Under the pieces are notes generated by a model that ran no database searches, was not told the origin of the DNA, and worked only from the letters and a program-made list of their open reading frames with translations. The position numbers were made by a program, and so were the translations under genes. From Natronorubrum daqingense (lineage in GTDB: Archaea; Halobacteriota; Halobacteria; Halobacteriales; Natrialbaceae), in assembly GCF_001971705.1 (NCBI RefSeq), contig NZ_CP019327.1, forward strand, positions 124,001 through 188,000: a DNA stretch of 64,000 nucleotides. Direction: 5' to 3'. This document shows, one piece after another, positions 11,395-24,739 of the stretch; positions within the stretch are counted from its first letter, which is position 1; the number at the start of each line of letters is the position of its first letter.

Positions 11395-13152
11395 TTATTT
11401 CTCTTCGACGTGTCGAATTTCGGCGGCGATGCCGCGCGTGCTCTCTTTCATCTCCCGACCGAACATCTCCGCGCGGCCGATTCCGAACGCCTTCGGCCCC
11501 TCGACGACGACCTCGTCACCGACGCGGATGTCCTCGTCGGCGTCGACGATGCCGGGTGCGAGGACGCTGCCGTGGGGAACGAAGCCGTCGATCTCGATTC
11601 GTTTCGTCGGGACGTCGCTCGTAACCCAGCGTTTCGCCCCCTCGAGTGTGAACGAAAGCGTCCCGTACTGGGGCACCATCGTCGCCAGTTGCGTCTCCTC
11701 GTCGTTTCGAACCTGAATTTTCGGATACCGACTGGTCGTCTGAATATCCTCGAAGAGGTCGTCGCCGGCACCGTCGCCGAGCAGGTAATCCGCGAGGGCG
11801 CGGACGGTGTTGTGCTCGCGCTCGCGCTTCGAGTACTTCAATTCGCCCGACAGCGCACTCGAGAGGTTCGCGAGCGATTCCTCGTCGGTCGGGTGACCGC
11901 CCTCGGGGACGGTGTAGGTGATCTCGAGGTCGAGTTCGTCTTCGACGCGGCCGACGATGTCGCGATAGCCCTCGCCGGGAACGTGGGCGATGATGTCGGG
12001 GTACTCGTTTCGCTCGAGGTAGCGCTCGAGGACCGCGCTCACGAACTGCTTTTCGTCCTCGGACCAGCGACCCGTGACGACGGTGTCGTAGTGTTGGGCG
12101 GGGTAGGTCGTCTCGAGTTCCTGGGGAACGACGCCGATAGGGCTGGTCATCGAGACGAGGTGGGCGCGCCACTGGATGGCGTCGTGGAACTGGCGGTGGC
12201 TCTGGGACTCGCTGTAGGGTTTGGCCGCCGAGCAAGGGACCAACACGAGCGGATTTTTGAACCGGTTTCGGTAGCGACTCGTCACGCGATCCGCGTAGCG
12301 CTGGATCTCGACGCGACGCAGGGTGTCCTCGGTCGCCGCCGAAATTTCGGCGTCTCGCAAGATTGGGGTTCGCTCCTCGAGGTAGCCCCACTGGGAATCG
12401 AGTTCGCGCATGGCGGCGGTGAGCCACTGGTCCTGACGGGCCTGTCCTTCGACGTAATCGCGGAGTCGTCCGTCGCGAATCCGACGGCGAACGATGGCGA
12501 GTTCGGCCGCGAGCGCGTTGGCGTTGTGTTCGGCGCAGTCCTGTCGAGTGAACTCCTCGCGTGGCTTCTGGCAAGCCGGACACGAGCAGGGCAGTTCCGC
12601 CAAGTCCTCGAGGAAGTAGGCCTCGTCGGTGGTGAGGTATCGACCTTCAGTGCCCTTCACGACGGCTGCGGTTTCGTCGAAGAGATCGACTCCCGCGTAG
12701 GCGAGGAGGGCGACGTTTCGAGGCGTGGCGACGCCGGAGAACAAGAGCGCGGTGTCGGTCGGAATCTCCTCGCGGACGGAGACGACGGCGTCGACGAGCG
12801 CCGCGCCGTGTCCCGTGATCGACTGCACGTCAGAGACGGCGTAGGCGTCGGTCTCTTGGGCCGTCACGTGCTCGCTCGAGACGACGGCGACGCTCGGGTA
12901 GTCGACGTCGGGGTGGTCCACGGCGAACGATTCTTGAACCTCGTCGGCCGTCCCACCGGGGAACGCCCGGTGGGGGAGCACGGTGAGTTGGGAGTCGTCA
13001 CCCGCGGGGACCTCCCGCTCGCCGCTCCAGAGCGAGCCGGCGTCCGCGAGGACGTCGTCGACGAGCGCCGGGGTCGTGACGGGCGACTCGAGGCGGAGTT
13101 CGCCCACTCGAGCGGCCCCGTCGCGCTCGTGGACTTCGAAGTAGTCGGTCAT
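11395..13152 (-). CDS. arcS: Archaeosine synthase ArcS (TgtA2)
   Basis: This 585-residue protein converts preQ0 at position 15 of tRNA to archaeosine, after TgtA has inserted preQ0. It has a TGT-like N-terminal half with a CSCPACQ zinc-type motif. The ArcS signature PCSAAKPYSESQSH lies in the middle and distinguishes it from the transglycosylase. A C-terminal PUA domain follows, beginning about GAKRWVTSDVP and including VVEGPKAFGIGRAEM. The length fits the family. TgtA is encoded 1.1 kb away on the same strand (14258-15733), so the two successive enzymes of the pathway are close together. Confidence 0.93.
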   Translation of the reverse strand: MTDYFEVHERDGAARVGELRLESPVTTPALVDDVLADAGSLWSGEREVPAGDDSQLTVLPHRAFPGGTADEVQESFAVDHPDVDYPSVAVVSSEHVTAQETDAYAVSDVQSITGHGAALVDAVVSVREEIPTDTALLFSGVATPRNVALLAYAGVDLFDETAAVVKGTEGRYLTTDEAYFLEDLAELPCSCPACQKPREEFTRQDCAEHNANALAAELAIVRRRIRDGRLRDYVEGQARQDQWLTAAMRELDSQWGYLEERTPILRDAEISAATEDTLRRVEIQRYADRVTSRYRNRFKNPLVLVPCSAAKPYSESQSHRQFHDAIQWRAHLVSMTSPIGVVPQELETTYPAQHYDTVVTGRWSEDEKQFVSAVLERYLERNEYPDIIAHVPGEGYRDIVGRVEDELDLEITYTVPEGGHPTDEESLANLSSALSGELKYSKREREHNTVRALADYLLGDGAGDDLFEDIQTTSRYPKIQVRNDEETQLATMVPQYGTLSFTLEGAKRWVTSDVPTKRIEIDGFVPHGSVLAPGIVDADEDIRVGDEVVVEGPKAFGIGRAEMFGREMKESTRGIAAEIRHVEEK

Positions 13153-13231
13153 ACTCGATTATGGCGGGGGCGCGCGAAAGAGGCTGTCGATAGCGATCAT
13201 CGGGAGGAGGGAACATCCAGGCAGCGACGAA

Positions 13232-13594
13232 TCAAGCGCGGCGCTCGAAGGTCGCCGTCGCGGAGGTGTGTCCGCGGTTGAACGAGAGGATCGTGACTTC
13301 GATTACGTCGCCGACCGAGAGGCCGTCGGGAATGTTCTCGACGAAGACGACGAATCCCTGGACCTTGCAGACGGCCTGTCGCTCGCCCGTGTGGTGTTCA
13401 GTAAACTCCTGGACGGCGACGTCGTGGCTGTCACCGATTTCGACTGGCGCTTCACGTTGTTGAGCGTCTCGATGACGTTCGTACGATTGCTGTCGATCCG
13501 ACGAGTCGCTCCCCCCACGTACTCGGTTCACGAGCCACGAACCGAACAACACGGTGATGAGGAGGCCGAAAGCGAGCGACGTTACCTCGAACAT
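13232..13594 (-). CDS. Membrane-anchored TRAM domain protein
   Basis: This 120-residue protein has a single N-terminal membrane segment (about residues 5-23), a charged linker, and a C-terminal TRAM domain (about 60-118; VCKVQGFVVFVENIPDGLSV followed by VTILSFNRGHTSATATF). TRAM is a small beta-barrel that binds RNA, found in tRNA-modifying enzymes and as an RNA-chaperone-like fold in archaea. It lies 79 bp upstream of arcS on the same strand and could be co-transcribed. The membrane anchor is unusual for TRAM proteins and suggests RNA handling at the membrane. Its function is unproven. Confidence 0.8.
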   Translation of the reverse strand: MFEVTSLAFGLLITVLFGSWLVNRVRGGSDSSDRQQSYERHRDAQQREAPVEIGDSHDVAVQEFTEHHTGERQAVCKVQGFVVFVENIPDGLSVGDVIEVTILSFNRGHTSATATFERRA

Positions 13595-13781
13595 AGTCGA
13601 TGCAGGTGTCGCGGTCGTCTTTGCTGTTTCTGATCTCCGACGGATTCGACCGTATTGGAACCAATTCAGAAACGCCCGTCTGTTCTTAATACGATCACAA
13701 CATTCGGGCGCCCTCTGAATGCCTGATCAATCATAACACACGGCCACTACATTTTTCCCTTCCCAAACGTTGGGGTGAAGC

Positions 13782-14114
13782 GTGAGCGATCTATCTATCG
13801 GTTCGGCTGAGAACGGCCTCGATGAATCCGTGAGCATCGCGGTCGTTACAGCGGTCGCGGACCGACGGGAAGTCCCCGTAACCGAACTCCCACCACTGTA
13901 CGAGTGGATCGATCCGGATTCGCTGGACGCCCTGTTCGAACCGACCCGGCGACACGGTTCCCGTTCCGGCTCCCTTGAGTTCGACTACGACGGACACGAC
14001 ATCGTCGTCGAGGTCGAGAACGGCCTCGAGATTACGATCGACGGGACGGCGGCTCCCGAACCGATATCAGCGTCGAGGTACGGGTTCTCCGACGACTCGT
14101 CCTCGAGCGTGTAG
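13782..14114 (+). CDS. HalOD1 domain protein
   Basis: This 110-residue protein matches the halobacterial output domain HalOD1. It has SIAVVTAVADRREVPVTELP, then PLYEWIDPDSLDALF, and a beta hairpin with FDYDGHDIVVEV. Such proteins are common single-domain products in haloarchaea, thought to act in signal output, with no established biochemical role. The GTG start is supported by an AT-rich ATTTTTCC element about 30 bp upstream. A small inverted repeat CCCAA-ACG-TTGGG (13762-13774) sits just ahead of the start and could be a regulator site. Confidence 0.82.
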   Translation: MSDLSIGSAENGLDESVSIAVVTAVADRREVPVTELPPLYEWIDPDSLDALFEPTRRHGSRSGSLEFDYDGHDIVVEVENGLEITIDGTAAPEPISASRYGFSDDSSSSV

Positions 14115-14257
14115 CGGCTGACGGGCCGTCGAGAGACCGAAATGGATCGATTCGTGTCGGTCACCGTTCGAACGATTTCGTCGCTATTTGTCGCTCTGTA
14201 TCCGTCACATGTTCTCCGAAAACGTGTTGTGAGCGGCGCTATTCGCCGTGAGCGATG

Positions 14258-15733
14258 CTACTCGGCGTCCAGATCGACTCGCTCGACCGCCTCCGGCACG
14301 CGCTCGAGGACACCCGCTGGCCAGCCCCGATGGCCCAACGTGATCGCCGCGTCAGGATTGGCCTCTACGAGTCGGCTGACGCCCTCGGCTGCGGCCTCGA
14401 GGGCCGCGCGATCCGTTCGATCCGGCACTTCCGCGGTGAGCGGATAGCTCTTCGAGAGCGCCCGCGGGAAGGGGCCAAACGGCGGTTGGACGCGCCAGGA
14501 GTCGTCGAACTCGTCGGTCCGTGCGGAATTTCCTTCCGTGAGAAACAGCGAGTCGGGCACGGAGAGGCGCTCGAGACGTCGGTGGTGGCGAACGACTTCT
14601 GGCCGCCGGGCGCTCTCGTGGGAGGTGTAGAAGAACGCGCCCTTGGAGACGGGGTCGCTTTGCTCGAGTTGGTCGGCGTGATCGAGCAGCGTTCGGTAGC
14701 CGTCGAGCATCGTCGGGTGGGCGCGAGCGCGTTGCTCGACGAGTTCGAGGAGGTTCCCCGCGCGAATAGCTTGCTTGATTCGGCGGATCTCTTCGAAGGT
14801 GACGTGGAGGTTGTGCGCGCCGAGTTCCGTTTCCCGCGCGTCGTCGTCCAGCGCGCGCAGTTCCTCGGGAGAGTGCTCGGTACAGATGGGACACGAACAG
14901 GGCAGATACTCGAGGTCCTCGAGGTGGCGAGTGCCACGAACCGTCAGGTAGCGATCGTCGCGGGCGTAGAGCGCGTAGGCCGCGGAGTCGAAGAGGTCAC
15001 AGCCCATCGCGACGCCGAGGGCGAACATCATCGGATGGCCGGCACCGAAGAGGTGGACCGGTGCGTCAGCGCCGAGACCGCGTTTGGCTCCCGCGACGGC
15101 GTCGACCATGTCGTCGTAGCGGTAGTCGTTCATCAGCGGGACGACCGCACCGACGGGAAACACGTCCAGATTCGTCGCGTCGGCGTGGCGGCCCGCCCGC
15201 TCGCGCAGATCCGGGTACGTCGAGCCCTGGACGGGTGCGCTGACGAGCATGTCCCCAGTGTCGACGGTTTCGGCCAACTCGAGGCGCTCCTGGGTCGTCT
15301 CGAGTTCGTCCTCGGCGCGCTCGCGAGGGACGTCCGGCGGGGTCGGGATGTCGACCGGCGTCGCGATGTCCGAGCCGATTTCGTGCTGGAACTCGAGGAT
15401 CTCTTCGGTCGTGACGTCGATCTCACCGTACTCGGAGAGTTGGAACGAGCCCGAGTCGGTCATGATCGCGCCGGGGAAGTCGAGCAGGTCGTGGAGGCCG
15501 TCCTCGAGGGCCTCCTCGCGGACGTCTTCGGTCCCGTGGATGATATACGAGTTCGTGATGAGGATTTCGGCGCCGAACTCCGTGGCCAGTCGACGGGGGG
15601 CGATCGTGTCCAGATTCGGGTTGATTACCGGCAACAGCGCCGGCGTCTCGACGGTAACGTCTGCTCGCGGAACGGTCAACTCGCCGATTCGCCCACCGGC
15701 GTCCGTGTCCCGGACTTCGAAGCACTCGCGCAT
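14258..15733 (-). CDS. tgtA: tRNA-guanine(15) transglycosylase TgtA
   Basis: This 491-residue archaeal TGT exchanges guanine-15 in the D-loop of tRNA for preQ0, the first step of archaeosine formation. The TIM-barrel half contains IMTDSGSFQ (active-site Asp), [14 protein letters not shown], and a further conserved strand around [13 protein letters not shown]. The zinc site is [15 protein letters not shown] with a His about 20 residues on (GAHNLH). The start was placed at 15733 ([11 protein letters not shown]), as the family begins with this strand and the extra upstream codons are not conserved in character. The PUA-type RNA-binding region is carried mainly by the separate ArcS. Confidence 0.93.
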
Positions 15734-16024
15734 CGAACGTGGGTTGGGCCGTCCGACGTAAGTCAGTGAAGGTTTCGACCGGGACGTGTCGACCGCCTGT
15801 TTTCTCCCCCTCTCGAGGACGATGCTGAGCAAACAAAACCATCCGTTACGACGCCAGAATCGCATGATATCGGCGAGTGCAGGCACAACTACAAACCACG
15901 TCTACCGGGGGGTGGTATTTTGCGAGCGAGAACGCTCGTTCACTCGAGGGAGTGAATCAGCGATTAGCGACCGTTACACGAGTGCAAAGTGCGACTTTCG
16001 CCGCGATAATCTCGTAACAGTCGG
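15734..16024. other. Intergenic region with two adjacent hairpins
   Basis: No gene is supported between tgtA and the first acidic surface protein. The stretch has two back-to-back perfect hairpins: CGAGCG-AGAA-CGCTCG at 15923-15938 and TTCACTC-GAGG-GAGTGAA at 15939-15956. It is markedly more AT-rich towards its right end, as expected of a promoter zone. The hairpins may be regulator sites or act in the 5' region of one of the divergent transcripts. Confidence 0.4.
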
Positions 16025-16036
16025 CTCGTTTTAGCC
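16025..16036 (+). promoter_or_regulatory. Promoter element of acidic surface protein 1
   Basis: CTCGTTTTAGCC, with a TATA-like TTTTAG, lies 38 bp upstream of the ATG. The identical 12-mer is found 37 bp upstream of the paralogous gene at 17738, so the two genes probably share regulation. Confidence 0.5.
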
Positions 16037-16062: not shown

Positions 16063-17562
16063 ATGGATTCACGATCGCAGAAACTCGGTGTCGTATTCAT
16101 CGCGCTGATGGTTGCTCTCTCGGGGGGTCCTGCCCTCGCGGGTGCGTCAACAAGTGCGACTGACGATGCCGGCGACATGAGCGCAACGATTCAAGATACG
16201 GACGTTGAGACACTCGAGCTCGATGATGCCACCGTCGAAGACGCGACGATCGAAGAGCTGAACGTCGAGAACTTCGACGCTGACACGACCGAACTCGAAG
16301 AGGAACTCGACGGCGCTGACGACGAGAACGGCGCCGACGACGCTGAGAACAACGACGAGGAAGAAACTGCCGCAGTTGTCCAGGACGACGAGGAAGCCGA
16401 GGACGATGAGGCTGAAGACGAAGCTGACGACGAGGCGGAAAACGGTGAGGAAGTCACGATCTCCGACATCCAACTCGAGCAACTCGAGCTACAGGATGTC
16501 TCCATCGAGGACCTCGAACTCGACGAAGAAGACGAGGACGCTGACGACGCAGACGATGCGGAGGCTGACGACGAGAACGGCGCTGACGACGCTGATGAGA
16601 ACGACAACAACGAGGAAGAAACTGCCGCAGTCGTCCAAGACGACGAGAACGACGCAGACGACGAGGAAGCGGACGACGAAGACGCTGACGATGAAGACGC
16701 TGCAAACGGACAGGATCTGATCGACGAGGACGCTAGCGAGGTCACCGTCGAAGAGCTCACCATCGAGACGATGGACGTCGAGACGCTGACCATCGACGAG
16801 CTAACCGTCGGTGACGAAGCTGACGACGAGGAGGCTGACGACGATGACGCCGACGATGCGGACGCTGACGACGAGAACGGCGCCGACGACGCTGACGACG
16901 AGAACGACGAAGCGGAAACTGACGCCGCCGTCCAAGACGACGAGAACGACGAAATGGACGACGAGGAAGCGGACGATGAGGATGCTGACGAGGACGCTGA
17001 CGACGAAGACGCTAACGGCGAAACCGAAGACCTCGGTCAGCTCACCATCGAGCAGTTCGACGTCGACGAGATTACCATCGACTCGATGACCGTCGACGAA
17101 GCCAACGAAGAGGAGGCTGACGACGCAGACGACGACGCTGATGCGGACGCTGACGCCGACGACAACGGTGCTGACGACGCCGACGAGAACGACGAAGAAG
17201 AAACTGCCGCAGCCATTCAGGACGACGAGGACGACGACGCTGAGGCAGACGCTCCTGACGAAGACGACGCAAACGACGAGGACGCTGACGATGAAGATGC
17301 TGACGAAGAGACCGTCACGCAAGCCTCTGCATCCACGATCGACATCGGTGACGCGAGCGCAGACTCGATCACGCTCGCCGACGCAAGCGAACTCGAGGAA
17401 GCGGACGATGAAGACGCTGACGACGAGGAGGCTGACGATGCAGACGACGAAGACGCTGACGAAGACGACAACGGACTCCTCAACGGTGACGACGAGGACG
17501 AGGACACCGAGGATGACGAGGAAGACGACAACGGACTGCTCCCGAGCGCGTTCCTGAGCTAA
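16063..17562 (+). CDS. Secreted acidic protein with five pentapeptide-like modules (paralogue 1)
   Basis: This 499-residue protein has an N-terminal signal peptide (about 1-27, hydrophobic core VVFIALMVALSGGPALAG). Five short modules of about 25 residues follow (48-72, 131-155, 227-251, 324-348, about 420-445). Each is made of five consecutive quasi-pentapeptides with a hydrophobic residue at positions 1 and 4, for example VETLE-LDDAT-VEDAT-IEELN. They are joined by Asp/Glu-rich linkers containing a recurring punctuation such as TAAVVQDDE or DAAVQDDE. No C-terminal sorting signal or membrane helix is visible; it ends LLPSAFLS, so it is probably released or held by charge. The linkers could bind Ca, Mg or K. 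The next gene has the same five modules in the same order. Function unknown. Confidence 0.85.
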   Translation: MDSRSQKLGVVFIALMVALSGGPALAGASTSATDDAGDMSATIQDTDVETLELDDATVEDATIEELNVENFDADTTELEEELDGADDENGADDAENNDEEETAAVVQDDEEAEDDEAEDEADDEAENGEEVTISDIQLEQLELQDVSIEDLELDEEDEDADDADDAEADDENGADDADENDNNEEETAAVVQDDENDADDEEADDEDADDEDAANGQDLIDEDASEVTVEELTIETMDVETLTIDELTVGDEADDEEADDDDADDADADDENGADDADDENDEAETDAAVQDDENDEMDDEEADDEDADEDADDEDANGETEDLGQLTIEQFDVDEITIDSMTVDEANEEEADDADDDADADADADDNGADDADENDEEETAAAIQDDEDDDAEADAPDEDDANDEDADDEDADEETVTQASASTIDIGDASADSITLADASELEEADDEDADDEEADDADDEDADEDDNGLLNGDDEDEDTEDDEEDDNGLLPSAFLS

Positions 17563-17700
17563 TCCGGACGTTCCTCCACACTTTTCTTCGCACTACCGAC
17601 GCTCGAGCGCCCGCTCAGTCCGCATCTGGTAGATCGATGAACGGCGGATTAGCGCGCCAGCACGCGTGCTAACCGTCTATTTCTTCGAGAGAACGGTCGC

Positions 17701-17712
17701 CTCGTTTTAGCC
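17701..17712 (+). promoter_or_regulatory. Promoter element of acidic surface protein 2
   Basis: CTCGTTTTAGCC lies 37 bp upstream of the ATG at 17738 and is identical to the element before the paralogue. The intervening leader sequences differ, so the 12-mer appears selectively conserved. Confidence 0.5.
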
Positions 17713-17737
17713 GCGTGCTCCGCTTCGCCGGGAGTGT

Positions 17738-18856
17738 ATGACGTCACGATCGCAGCAACTCGGTGTCGTATTCGTCGCGCTGATGGTCGCACTCTCTGGG
17801 GGACCGGCCCTCGCGGGCGCGTCGACCGGGGCGAGTGCCGACGCCGGAGCGACCGGAGAGACGAGCGCGACGCTCGAGAACGTTCAGATCGATTCGCTCG
17901 ACCTCGCCGACGCGACGGTCGAGGACGCGACGATTCAGGAGTTGACCGTCGAGAACTTCGACGTGGACGACGAGATCGAGGAGGAACTCGAGGAGAACGA
18001 CGACGCTGGGAACGGAGACGCCGAGGAGAACGGAGCCGAACAAACCGCGTCGATCGTCCAGGAAGACGACGAGACCGAGGAGGACACCGCCGACGGCGAG
18101 CAGGTGACAATCTCGAACATCGCGTTCGAGCAACTCGAACTCGAGGACGTCTCGATCGAGGATCTCGATCTCGAGGAAGCAGACGAAACGGATGCGGACG
18201 AAGCGGACGAGGAGAACGCAGACGACGCAGCCGACGGCAACGGCGAGGACGCCGACGAGGAGACCGAAGAGGAGGAACTGATCGACGAGAACGCGACGGA
18301 AGTCACCGTCCAACAGCTTACGATCGAATCTATGGCCGTCGAGCAACTGACGGTCGACGATCTGACCGTCGAGGACGACGGCATCATCGATCAGATCGGC
18401 GACTTCTTCGACGACATCATCGGCGACGACAACGGTGACAACGACGACGCACAGACCGGCGCGGCCGTTCAAGACGAAGACGAGGATGTCGACGACCCCG
18501 CCGCCGAAGACGTCGACAACGGCGACGACCCGACCGAGGATATCGACGTCCTCACGATCGAACAGTTCGACGTCGACAGCATCTCGATCGACTCGATGAC
18601 GGTCGAGTCGCTCGAGGAAGACGCGGAGTCGAACGACAACGGTGAGAACGAGGCCGAGGACGACGATGCCGCCGAGGACGGCGACATCGTCTCACAGGCG
18701 GCCGCGACCTCGATGTCTATCGACACCGTCACTGCCGACAGCGTGACGCTCGGGGAGGCGAGCGACCTCGAGGACGCGACCGACGACGCAGCCGACGGAA
18801 ACGACGAGGCTGACGAGCAAGACGAAGACGCTGGCGACGACGACAGCGACGAGTAG
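17738..18856 (+). CDS. Secreted acidic protein with five pentapeptide-like modules (paralogue 2)
   Basis: This 372-residue tandem paralogue of the preceding gene has a nearly identical signal peptide (SRSQQLGVVFVALMVALSGG). The same five modules occur in order: VQIDSLDLADATVEDATIQE, VTISNIAFEQLELEDVSIED, VTVQQLTIESMAVEQLTVDD, VLTIEQFDVDSISIDSMTVE, and a shorter SIDTVTADSVTLGEA. The linkers are much shorter and less repetitive, though they keep punctuations such as TASIVQEDDE and TGAAVQDEDE. The modules are conserved while the linkers drift in length, which marks the modules as the functional units. It ends in an acidic tail without an anchor. Confidence 0.85.
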   Translation: MTSRSQQLGVVFVALMVALSGGPALAGASTGASADAGATGETSATLENVQIDSLDLADATVEDATIQELTVENFDVDDEIEEELEENDDAGNGDAEENGAEQTASIVQEDDETEEDTADGEQVTISNIAFEQLELEDVSIEDLDLEEADETDADEADEENADDAADGNGEDADEETEEEELIDENATEVTVQQLTIESMAVEQLTVDDLTVEDDGIIDQIGDFFDDIIGDDNGDNDDAQTGAAVQDEDEDVDDPAAEDVDNGDDPTEDIDVLTIEQFDVDSISIDSMTVESLEEDAESNDNGENEAEDDDAAEDGDIVSQAAATSMSIDTVTADSVTLGEASDLEDATDDAADGNDEADEQDEDAGDDDSDE

Positions 18857-19617: not shown

Positions 19618-19893
19618 ATGGATCAGCTCACAGGCTTCCAACGAGACTTGCTGTACGTAATCGCCGGTAAAGACCGTCCGTCCGGACAGGAGATACTCGA
19701 CGACGTCAATCGCTATATTGACCAACCGGTCACGCACGGCCGGCTGTATCCAAATCTCGACACCTTAGTCGAGAAGGAACTCGTCGAGAAAGGCCAACTC
19801 GATCGGCGGACGAACTACTACGCATTGACCCCGAAAGGGAGACGCACCCTACAGCGCCGTCAGGAGTGGGTCGACCAGTACGTCGACGTCTAA
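19618..19893 (+). CDS. PadR family transcriptional regulator
   Basis: This 91-residue winged-helix protein of PadR type has LTGFQRDLLYVIAGKDRPSG, then QPVTHGRLYPNLDTLVEKEL (recognition helix region) and a wing with TNYYALTPKGRRTL. The GRLYPNLDTLxxKELV signature is typical of the PadR/DUF24-like group in haloarchaea. It lacks the long C-terminal dimerisation helices of larger PadR proteins. The downstream intergenic region contains a 28-bp tandem repeat. No effector gene is adjacent, so targets are unknown. Confidence 0.88.
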   Translation: MDQLTGFQRDLLYVIAGKDRPSGQEILDDVNRYIDQPVTHGRLYPNLDTLVEKELVEKGQLDRRTNYYALTPKGRRTLQRRQEWVDQYVDV

Positions 19894-20164: not shown

Positions 20165-21502
20165 TTAGTCGTCGGCCGGCACCGGCTCTTCTTCCTCGTC
20201 GGCTGGGTCGTCTTCGTCGGCATAGTCGTCCTCGGGTTCGTCTTCGAGATCGTCCTCAGGGTCGGTTTCTGGATCGGTCTCGGGATCGTCCTCGAGTTCT
20301 TCGTCGTCGAACTCGTCTTCTGGCTCGTCGTCCTCGAGGTCGTCTTCGTCGTCGTCGACTTCGTCCTCGTCCGGCTCAGCTTCCTCCGGTTCACCGTCGA
20401 CGTCCTCTTCGCCGCCGTCGACGGCAACCCGCATCTCGAACGGTCGGTCGCCTTCTGCGGTCGCACCGTCGCCGTCTCCCTCTTCGAAGTAGCCGATAAC
20501 GTACACCGTGTACGCGGTTCCTTCCTCGAGGTCGGCTTCGGCGGCGGCGAGTGGGTCTTCCTGTGCGATGACGCCACCGAAGTCCTCCTCGTCGTCGCCC
20601 TGGAGGTCGTCGTCGCCCGATTCGAAGAGCTGGATCGTCCGGGAGCCGGAGTCGATCGGCGCGTATCCCGGTGGCTCGGCGTAGGCGACGTTTTCGAAGA
20701 TGGTGTACCCGTCTTCTTCCTCCGCGACGTCCAGTTCGGGCGAGTTCGGCGAGGCGTTGAAGACGCGAAGCTGGGACTCCTCTTCGACGTCGTCGGGGCC
20801 TGCGTCGTAGAGCATCCGAACTTCGAACTCACCGTCGTCGGTGATCTCGTCCTCGAGGTCGTCGTCTTCGTCCTCGAGGTCGTCGTCTTCGTCTTCGAGG
20901 TCGTCGTCATCCTCGAGGTCGTCATCGGGGTCGTCCTCGAGATCATCGTCGAGGTCGTCTTCGGGGTCGTCTTCTACGTCGTCCTCGAGGTCATCTTCAG
21001 GCTCCGCTTCGGGCTCGTCCGCCGGGTCGTCGTCAGCGTCGTAGTCGTCGTCTTCACCGTAGTCGTCATCGTCGTCGTACTCGTCTTCGTCCTCCTGAAT
21101 CGACGAGCCGGTTTCAGCCGTTTCGTCGCCGTACTCGCCGATCGCAGCGACCGTATAGTAGTCCGTGTCGACCGTGATGGAGTCCTCGTAGATCGGGTCC
21201 TCGTCGCCGGCCTCCGTTATCGTCATCGTGTACGTACCGGGGGCGATGTCGAGGTACGGCGAGAGTTCGTCGTAGCCGACGTCCGAGAGAACCTGCTGAT
21301 TGGCGATGTAGACGTCGACGTCGGGTGCGTCCGGCGAGAAGTGCCCGACGCGAATCGCGCCCACTCCGCCGTCGTCTTCATCGTCTTCGTCGTCTACGTC
21401 GTCTACGTCGTCTTCTTGGATGGCCAGAGCCGTTCCAGTCAGTGCCGACCCTGCGCCAGCGACACCGATTGCCTTGATTGTCGTTCGTCGTGATAGCGTC
21501 AT
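20165..21502 (-). CDS. Secreted DUF4397 protein with long acidic linkers
   Basis: This 445-residue protein has a twin-arginine-type signal (SRRTTIK then a hydrophobic stretch to ALA, about residue 27). A DUF4397 domain follows directly, with IRVGHFSPDAPDVDVYIANQ and a carboxy part YTMTITEAGDEDP. A second, DUF4397-like segment (about 225-360; LRVFNASPNSPELDVAEEED, GTAYTVYVIGYF) follows an Asp/Glu linker of about 80 residues, and the protein ends in another acidic tail of about 75 residues. DUF4397 proteins are extracellular immunoglobulin-like surface proteins. The linker contains TGSSIQEDEDE, close to the TGAAVQDEDED punctuation of the two acidic paralogues nearby. No membrane anchor is seen. 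Confidence 0.85.
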   Translation of the reverse strand: MTLSRRTTIKAIGVAGAGSALTGTALAIQEDDVDDVDDEDDEDDGGVGAIRVGHFSPDAPDVDVYIANQQVLSDVGYDELSPYLDIAPGTYTMTITEAGDEDPIYEDSITVDTDYYTVAAIGEYGDETAETGSSIQEDEDEYDDDDDYGEDDDYDADDDPADEPEAEPEDDLEDDVEDDPEDDLDDDLEDDPDDDLEDDDDLEDEDDDLEDEDDDLEDEITDDGEFEVRMLYDAGPDDVEEESQLRVFNASPNSPELDVAEEEDGYTIFENVAYAEPPGYAPIDSGSRTIQLFESGDDDLQGDDEEDFGGVIAQEDPLAAAEADLEEGTAYTVYVIGYFEEGDGDGATAEGDRPFEMRVAVDGGEEDVDGEPEEAEPDEDEVDDDEDDLEDDEPEDEFDDEELEDDPETDPETDPEDDLEDEPEDDYADEDDPADEEEEPVPADD

Positions 21503-23084: not shown

Positions 23085-23402
23085 TCAGTCGACGAACGTA
23101 TCCTGTCTCTGGTACCAGTTGAGCAGCGTTGTCACGCCGTCGGTGACGACGTTTCGCTGGTCCAACCCACCGTCGACGAGTCCGTTGGCGAGATTCACGT
23201 ACACGAAATCCTCGAAGTGATCGAAATCCCGGTCGAAGTTGACGTACCAAGGGGTCCACGGATTAGCCGTAAACGCCGTCGTTTCGTACCCCCTCTCCGA
23301 AAACCGTCGTGGCAGCGTCCGTCGCGAACGCATGTGCTGTCGGATGCGTTCCGTGTAACACCGACGGAGTTCTGGCGATAACTGCGCGCTACCCGTTCTC
23401 AC
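23085..23402 (-). pseudogene. Sulfatase-family gene fragment
   Basis: These 105 codons contain FSERGYETTAFTANPWTPWY and then VNFDRDFDHFEDF, a close match to the region of haloarchaeal sulfatase/alkaline-phosphatase fold enzymes that follows the catalytic Cys/Ser segment. The N-terminal active site and the C-terminal half are absent; a complete sulfatase has 450 residues or more. It abuts the 3' end of the polysaccharide deacetylase gene, overlapping by 4 bp. It is therefore probably a relic of a surface-polysaccharide gene cluster and not a functional enzyme. Confidence 0.6.
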
Positions 23403-24739
23403 TCGTCGTCGACGACAGACTCGGTCTCGAGATCGGTGACAGCTCCGACCTCGAGATCACCGTCGTCGACGTACTCTTCGAGACGTTCCATCGTCTCTTC
23501 GAAGCGCTCGAGCGCGTCCTCGTCCTCGAGTGAGCCGTAGGCGAAGACGGTGACGCCGCCGAGTTCTTCCGTTCGTTCCAGATATTCCTCGGCATCCTCG
23601 ACGGCCGGATCGAACACGCGCGGGTAGCGGGTCGGATCGACGACCGCTCCCTGAACGGGGTCGCCGCTGGCGAACGCGAGGTCGACGGTGTCCGCGACGG
23701 CCTCGAGTGACGCGGTGTCGTAGCGGCCGTTCGGATACGAGACGGAGGCCGCGCCGTCCTCGTAGCCCTCGTCTTCGAGCCACTCCTGGGCGTCCTCGAG
23801 TTGCTCCGTTAGGTCGTCCGCGTCGATTTCGTCGAACGTCTCTCCGGTTTCACCGTGGCTGGCAACCGTCCATCCGGCGTCGTCGAACTCCTCGAGGTCT
23901 TCTTCCGTGAGGAAATCGCCGTCTTCCTCGTCATCATCATCGTCATCGTCGTCGTCATCATCATCATCGTCATCGTCGTCGTCATCATCATCGTCATCAT
24001 CGTCGTCCTCGAGAATCAGTTCCGTCGGGACGAACACCGTCGCCGGATAGTCGTACTCCTCGAGAATCGAGAATCCCTCCTCGTAGATCGATTCGTGAGC
24101 GCCGTCGAACTGGAGCAAGATCACGCCGTCGTCGACTCTCGGAAGAATATGCAGGTCGTCGATCAGGAGTTCGGCTGTCGAGTCGTCGGTGAAAATCGCG
24201 ATGTGGATCGCGGTAATTCGCTCGAGGTCGACGGTCGTATCCACGCTCGAGATGCCGAAGTGACACCGCCTGAGATCCTCGCTCTCGTGAACCGTCGCGC
24301 GAAATTCGATACTGTTGTTGTCCTCGTCGAACAGCTGAATCCTCGGCGTCACCGTCTCGGATGTCGCGACGGCTATCCCGAGGTTCACCGCCGAGCAATC
24401 GATCGGTTCCGAGAGTTCGCGGACGATTCGGACCTGTTCGTGGTGGTCTCTGGCCTCGAGCAAGACAGATTGTTCGCCGGCGACGACCTCGTCTTCGACA
24501 GCCGTCATCGCGCCGTCGATCACCTCCCAGGCGTCGAGGTCATCGAAATCGTCGATCGTCCCCCGTTCGTCGGGTCCCTCGAGTCCGGACGGCTCGTCCT
24601 CGCTCGAGTCGTCCACCCCCTCGGTGCTCGCCGATTCGTCTGCCTCTCCGTCGTCCTCGTCGTCGCCGAATCCGACGCAGCCGGCTGCGGTCACCATCGC
24701 CGCACCGGTCGCTGCCCCGAGGTACGCCCGTCGGTTCAT
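23399..24739 (-). CDS. Polysaccharide deacetylase lipoprotein with a poly-Asp insertion
   Basis: This 446-residue protein starts MNRRAYLGAATG and has a lipobox-like TAAGC (Cys21), so it is probably a Tat-exported lipoprotein. A jelly-roll-like N-terminal domain (about 60-205) is followed by a NodB-type deacetylase domain with LLQFDGAHESIYEEGFSILE, YPATVFVPTE, WTVASHGETGETFDEI and a late SYPNGRYD. The expected metal-binding Asp-Asp and His motifs are only partly recognisable (QFDGAH, SHGETG), so activity is uncertain. Residues 245-270 are 26 consecutive Asp, placed directly after the VFVPTELILE strand inside the catalytic domain. Its 3' end overlaps a sulfatase relic. Confidence 0.8.
   Translation of the reverse strand: MNRRAYLGAATGAAMVTAAGCVGFGDDEDDGEADESASTEGVDDSSEDEPSGLEGPDERGTIDDFDDLDAWEVIDGAMTAVEDEVVAGEQSVLLEARDHHEQVRIVRELSEPIDCSAVNLGIAVATSETVTPRIQLFDEDNNSIEFRATVHESEDLRRCHFGISSVDTTVDLERITAIHIAIFTDDSTAELLIDDLHILPRVDDGVILLQFDGAHESIYEEGFSILEEYDYPATVFVPTELILEDDDDDDDDDDDDDDDDDDDDDDDDDDEEDGDFLTEEDLEEFDDAGWTVASHGETGETFDEIDADDLTEQLEDAQEWLEDEGYEDGAASVSYPNGRYDTASLEAVADTVDLAFASGDPVQGAVVDPTRYPRVFDPAVEDAEEYLERTEELGGVTVFAYGSLEDEDALERFEETMERLEEYVDDGDLEVGAVTDLETESVVDDE
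23930..24007. repeat. GAY-codon microsatellite encoding 26 Asp
   Basis: An uninterrupted run of 26 trinucleotides, all GTC or ATC on the plus strand (GAC/GAT codons on the coding strand), inside the deacetylase gene. Purine/pyrimidine strand asymmetry is complete apart from the A/G and T/C alternation. Slippage would change the number of Asp without a frameshift. Confidence 0.9.

Follow-up and report, generated by a model that had tools for sequence, protein, structure and literature searches.

The window, a stretch of 64,000 nucleotides from the haloarchaeon Natronorubrum daqingense, contains two adjacent genes whose products alternate short, regularly patterned modules with long acidic linkers. 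This raises the question of whether the modules are separate beads on a polyanionic string, as proposed in an earlier note made from the sequence alone, or parts of a single folded structure. That note had placed both genes correctly, with coordinates agreeing with those of the open reading frames P0001 and P0002 (Table 1).

Table 1. Features of the locus (positions counted from the first letter of the window)
Feature	Position	Strand	Remarks
tRNA-guanine transglycosylase-like genes	11395..15886	-	two genes adjoining the family site
Promoter element AACAGTCGGCTCGTTTTAGCC	16016..16036	+	before P0001; TATA-like box ~33 bases before ATG
P0001	16063..17562	+	P1-type paralogue, ORF of 499 aa
P0001 signal peptide, Sec-type	16063..16146	+	residues 1 to ~28, ...ALSGGPALAGA; predicted from sequence
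P0001 M1	16180..16284	+	residues 40-74, ~7 quasi-pentapeptides
P0001 M2	16450..16527	+	residues 130-155, 5 units
P0001 M3	16738..16815	+	residues 226-251, 5 units
P0001 M4	17038..17100	+	residues 326-346, 4-5 units
P0001 M5	17311..17403	+	residues 417-447, 4-5 less regular units
Promoter element, second copy AACGGTCGCCTCGTTTTAGCC	17692..17712	+	before P0002
P0002	17738..18856	+	P2-type paralogue, ORF of 372 aa
P0002 signal peptide	17738..17821	+	predicted from sequence
P0002 M1	17864..17968	+	residues 43-77; AlphaFold2 strand 55-76
P0002 M2	18101..18178	+	residues 122-147; AlphaFold2 strand 128-146
P0002 M3	18299..18382	+	residues 188-215; AlphaFold2 strand 188-211
Amphipathic helix (IIDQIGDFFDDII)	18383..18421	+	conserved, immediately after P0002 M3
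P0002 M4	18545..18619	+	residues 270-294; AlphaFold2 strand 266-294
P0002 M5	18686..18778	+	residues 317-347; AlphaFold2 strand 316-338
PadR-like regulator	19618..19893	+	small; 80-100% identity among loci
DUF4397 protein	20165..21502	-	TAT-type secreted, long D/E-rich linkers
Predicted lipoprotein	23399..24739	-	polysaccharide deacetylase domain (PF01522, E=3e-11)

Two acidic proteins with signal peptides

Judged from their signal peptides, the proteins of this family would be secreted; that of P0001 lacks a lipobox cysteine and is highly conserved across the family. In both proteins lysine, arginine and histidine are absent from residue 29 onward and there is no cysteine at any position, with computed charges of about -241 for P0001 (at pH 7) and about -137 for P0002. 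Lysine and arginine are likewise missing from M1 onward in 49 of 72 family members. Because these residues are almost absent, trypsin-based proteomics would miss the proteins, a blind spot in which a possibly abundant surface protein could have been overlooked. A calcium-binding identity of the RTX or EF-hand kind was considered and rejected, as the RTX motif (GGxGxD) occurs in neither protein and the EF-hand pattern (PS00018) has a single isolated match in P0001 and none in P0002. Elsewhere in the window, the predicted lipoprotein with the polysaccharide deacetylase domain contains more than 25 consecutive aspartates.

Five fixed modules with a five-residue period

Module models built from 18 relatives bear out the view that both paralogues carry five modules with a shared order. 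In an all-against-all comparison of the modules of P0001 with those of P0002, the same-numbered pair always ranked top (scores of 119, 94, 87, 74 and 77, against a best off-diagonal score of 53), with identities of 48-73%. That each module of P0001 matches its same-numbered counterpart best points to duplication of the whole gene rather than independent origin of the repeats. The exact M1-M5 order is retained in 72 of 94 relatives, most of the others showing extra or missing matches, and module length is near-constant among these 72. On the estimates from aligned modules of nine pairs (dN/dS 0.04-0.37), the modules are under purifying selection.

In a midpoint-rooted tree of the modules, its topology read without branch supports, the P1-type copies, without a helix after M3, separate from the P2-type copies, which carry one; hence the duplication is probably old. 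There are two exceptions: one helix-negative copy (L083) groups with the P2-type copies, and the long, divergent copies of Natrialba form their own branch. The latter, from alkaliphilic Natrialba and a relative (L051, L086, L094 and L096), are very long P1-like proteins of 687-815 aa; extra M4-like modules occur in some of them and a Cys-Cys stretch in one. M4 is matched more than once in L051 and L094, as the addition of coils would allow.

The lag-5 autocorrelation of hydrophobicity reaches 0.91 in P0001 (z 9.7) and 0.76 in P0002 (z 8.6), values matched by none of 1000 shuffles. The earlier description of hydrophobic residues at positions 1 and 4 captured this pattern in a shifted register: they occupy positions 1 and 3 of a V-x-I-x-x unit (frequencies of 0.99/0/0.99/0/0.01 in M1), the previous count having started from the second hydrophobic. 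Similarly, five quasi-pentapeptides per module is accurate for M2 and M3, while M1 has about seven, and M4 and M5 have four to five, those of M5 being less regular.

Pfam and NCBIfam scans returned no significant match over the modules, leaving the family without a model, a PDB sequence search with a 48-row profile found no matches, and no paper on the family appeared in the literature searched. These searches uphold the statement that no described family accounts for the proteins, and an adhesin match, which would have spoken against it, did not appear. Scattered matches to aspartyl protease, RodZ_C, choice-of-anchor D and others, each in one or two members, were judged to be chance. The only recurring match to a repeat fold is to Pentapeptide_4, at sub-threshold scores of 13.5 and 15.3 against the Pfam curated cut-off of 38 bits (best E of 0.022 in Natrialbaceae and 0.004 in the Halorussus/Halostella set).

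Predicted structure: coils of one solenoid likelier than beads

The AlphaFold2 model of P0002, computed at an alignment depth of 48 sequences, has a pTM of 0.51; 10-residue blocks within the modules reach pLDDT 81-91 and most linkers fall below 50. DSSP assigns strand or bridge across nearly all of M2-M5. M1 attains only 60-81, as against up to 91 in M3-M5, and a second model, of a more compact Haladaptatus relative, is weaker (pTM 0.45, module pLDDT mostly 60-78). The modules are hence predicted, with moderate confidence, to be all-beta and separated by disordered linkers, rather than to be disordered themselves, and this, together with the period-5 hydrophobicity, supports the previous likening of the repeat to a pentapeptide or beta-solenoid repeat. 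It has to be asked whether the mature protein could instead be an intrinsically disordered polyanion throughout, with a composition-driven pentapeptide pattern that folds weakly or on a partner. The negative charge of both proteins, their lack of any basic residue past the signal peptide, the low values for M1 and the weak Haladaptatus model would all suit such a reading; however, we regard it as very unlikely in light of the position-specific conservation, the low dN/dS and the high pLDDT of M3-M5.

As isolated solenoid turns would be left without hydrogen-bond partners, we infer from the model that the modules of P0002 pack on one another. Three observations make coils of one solenoid likelier than the beads of the earlier note. 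The modules keep their identity, order and number; almost every module residue is paired in beta structure in the model; and M1, M2 and M3 are almost contiguous in Halorussus and Haladaptatus, where only ~7-20 residues separate them. An alternative route to satisfying the edges of open-ended turns would be for modules of different molecules to stack, each serving as a bead pairing between chains, to give a fibre or gel of an extracellular matrix. Each module could be set free by linkers of such length, and many genomes have two copies, so that the paralogues could co-assemble. Nevertheless, we consider a fibre unlikely, given that distinct modules in fixed places are what would be expected of specific neighbours within one chain and that the single-chain model already pairs them.

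A Foldseek search of the PDB with the P0002 model gave no significant match (best E 0.6, TM ~0.05, rmsd 12-19 A), even though the list at E<=10 consists mostly of right-handed beta-helices, among them entries for AlbG, a pentapeptide-repeat protein, and for SV2A; the Haladaptatus model likewise yielded no fold match. The failure of the P0002 model to superpose on known helices could reflect either an irregular model or coils stacked out of sequence order.

The helix after M3 is present in P2-type and most single-copy members and absent from the P1-type; in the P0002 model it is short and of low confidence, and it is possibly a cap or a membrane contact. Additionally, a loose motif detects a short hydrophobic C-terminal tail in 37 of 85 members, which is absent from P0002. 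No recognised C-terminal anchor was found in family members, but the tail and the helix together could anchor the protein.

Linkers vary in length and chemistry

In contrast to the modules, the four linkers range from 18 to 190 residues among the 72 members with the exact module order (55/70/74/70 residues in P0001 and 44/40/54/22 in P0002). Their chemistry also varies, such that the polyanionic string does not hold as a trait of the family: linkers are strongly acidic in most soda-lake relatives, whereas the same linkers are rich in N-x-S/T sequons in neutral halophiles. The median number of sequons per 100 residues of protein is 6.95 in 24 proteins from neutral halophiles and 0.22 in 38 from alkaliphiles, the organisms having been sorted by us into pH classes on the general character of their genera, even though asparagine content is only modestly apart (7.7% vs 5.7%). 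The Mann-Whitney p of 3e-11 overstates this contrast because the proteins are not phylogenetically independent; the contrast recurs within Natrialba and within Halobiforma. Sequon density is 4-8 times that of shuffled sequences in most sequon-rich members, while sequons are not in excess in P0001 and P0002. Natronoglomus is an exception to the trend, at 2.3 per 100.

As the two paralogues of one organism mostly agree in linker chemistry, it tracks the organism rather than the paralogue. The host and nearly all of the relatives sampled have an AglB-type transferase, so loss of the enzyme does not explain the scarcity of sequons. The sequon-rich linkers of neutral-brine species would be N-glycosylated. 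Cytosolic neighbour genes show no such shift between neutral and alkaliphilic organisms. However, the secreted DUF4397 neighbour displays a weaker one (3 vs 10 proteins), with N-x-S/T-rich linkers in its orthologue from Haloterrigena salina (L079), in parallel to the family; accordingly, the shift may be a general trait of secreted haloarchaeal proteins.

Distribution, genomic context and control

The family is present in 29 of 37 genomes sampled from the Natrialbaceae, to which the host belongs, and in 31 of 61 genomes overall. Named genera of Natrialbaceae that have it include Natronorubrum, Natronococcus, Natrinema, Haloterrigena, Halopiger and Natrialba, among others, with further members in Halorussus, Halostella and Haladaptatus. 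In a class-wide sample at least 98 of 391 genomes match, a lower bound in that this search missed genomes found in the 61-genome search. A phylum-wide search returned nothing convincing outside the class, the weak matches in four genomes (E 5e-4 to 5e-7) lying in open frames of 52-80 residues, and searches of plasmids and viral contigs found no relatives. Within the reach of these searches, the family is therefore restricted to Halobacteria. Its outlying forms include short secreted relatives of 241-345 aa (L143-L149), mostly from Halorussus, in which the pentapeptide-like repeats are nearly contiguous and long acidic linkers are lacking; these may show the ancestral solenoid and likewise speak for coils of one solenoid.

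The site is conserved in Natrialbaceae and comprises tgtA, one or two family genes, a NUDIX gene on the opposite strand, a PadR-like gene and often a DUF4397 gene. The tRNA-guanine transglycosylase-like pair, which we take to be tgtA and its second paralogue, is kept in the neighbourhood in most Natrialbaceae examined. All 33 detected pairs of family genes lie on the same strand. In Natrinema zhouii the copies are apart, one adjoining tgtA and the other NUDIX-PadR, which suggests that a rearrangement split the pair.

A TATA-like box lies 28-45 bases upstream of 73 of 85 family genes, nearly always at -33 or -34, and the transcripts are probably leaderless or short-leader. In an alignment of 66 promoters, AAC, TC and TTTTAG do not vary, and most of AACAGTCGGCTCGTTTTAGCC is conserved. 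A 19-base pattern occurs 15 times in 37 genomes, every time just before a family gene, which points to dedicated control; the PadR-like protein is a possible candidate for the regulator. A one-mismatch match lies at G000:C1:2859698. A third genomic match of the short pattern falls inside an open reading frame, presumably for an acyl-CoA dehydrogenase, and was rejected as chance.

Such a dedicated promoter element might befit a surface protein that binds a specific ligand or has a regulatory role, comparable to an adhesin or to YjbI, in which the linkers serve only for solubility in brine. Some relatives from other haloarchaeal families (L106, L154, L155 and L161) end in a CARDB-like domain, detected in L106 just below the cut-off (PF07705, E=2.6e-4) and judged by eye in the other three, and secreted pentapeptide-repeat proteins can regulate the envelope (PMC12864828). 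However, the members from Natrialbaceae have no enzyme or adhesin domain, and the genes flanking the site on both sides are on the opposite strand, leaving the family genes without an operon partner; we hold this explanation to be decidedly unlikely.

A proposed hydrated coat on a conserved core

The explanation that we prefer, to which we assign an even chance of being right, is that the five modules are coils of one pentapeptide-like beta-solenoid whose disordered loops form a hydrated coat, the proteins making up an extracellular polyanion or glycoprotein layer. Each module would be a separate piece of about 1 to 1 3/4 turns, and these pieces, which add up to some six coils or 25 pentapeptides, would stack within one molecule. 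Projecting from the solenoid as disordered loops, the long linkers would surround a small core with a large, highly charged and hydrated coat. In most soda-lake species this coat would be strongly acidic; in neutral-brine species it would carry N-glycans. At the cell surface or close to it, the mature protein would most likely act as a layer that binds water and cations. An extracellular location and coat function are suggested by the signal peptide, the absence of a lipobox cysteine and of a recognised C-terminal anchor, the negative charge, and the variable loops on a conserved core. A more specific version is put forward tentatively: a solenoid cut between coils by loops of up to 190 residues within one molecule, possibly stacked out of order, with the loops rebuilt as acidic or N-glycosylated upon each move between soda and neutral brine.

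The proteins would represent an undescribed, widely conserved family of secreted haloarchaeal proteins. It would offer natural tests of how charge and N-glycans stand in for one another across pH on a scaffold that stays the same, and of how well a solenoid tolerates insertions between its coils.

Comparison with known systems

Pentapeptide repeat proteins (PF00805/PF13599), which form a right-handed quadrilateral beta-helix, share with the family the five-residue period and the inward hydrophobics at i-2 and i; unlike them, the family has Ile/Val at i, linkers of 18-190 residues and the make-up of a secreted polyanion. Their published definition calls for at least eight contiguous repeats and a consensus with Leu/Phe at i (PMC8145042). 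When tested as (A/C/S/V/T/L/I)(D/N/S/K/E/I/R)(L/F)(S/T/R/E/Q/K/V/D)(G/D/E/N/R/Q/K), this consensus is fully matched by 10.4% of 1091 family pentapeptides, in which residue i is Ile in 34%, Val in 27% and Leu/Phe in 22%, and the longest contiguous run is that of M1, with about seven units as compared with 4-5 elsewhere. By that definition these are not pentapeptide repeat proteins, although the modules probably work structurally like them. Insertion between coils has a precedent in Rfr23, a pentapeptide-repeat protein that accommodates one of 24 residues (PMC8145042). In the Knotted Solenoid of Brevundimonas, a beta-solenoid related to pentapeptide repeats, a linker of ~25 residues allows coils to stack in an order other than that of the sequence (PMC13123833). 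Going by its description, the long linkers of the present family would permit such stacking too, albeit in a different domain of life.

YjbI of Caulobacter provides a case of a secreted quadrilateral beta-helix working at the cell surface; it differs in its conserved cysteine pairs and Gram-negative outer-membrane setting, and polyanionic linkers are not described for it. Similar in the proposed role is halomucin (Hmu1) of Haloquadratum walsbyi, for which a water-holding coat has been proposed (PMC1544339). Compared by description, it too is secreted, acidic and haloarchaeal, with possible glycosylation sites, traits that are seen here in the signal peptide, the charge and the sequons of the neutral-halophile relatives. 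However, Hmu1 has 9159 residues and mucin-like domains, and pentapeptide-like modules are not described there.
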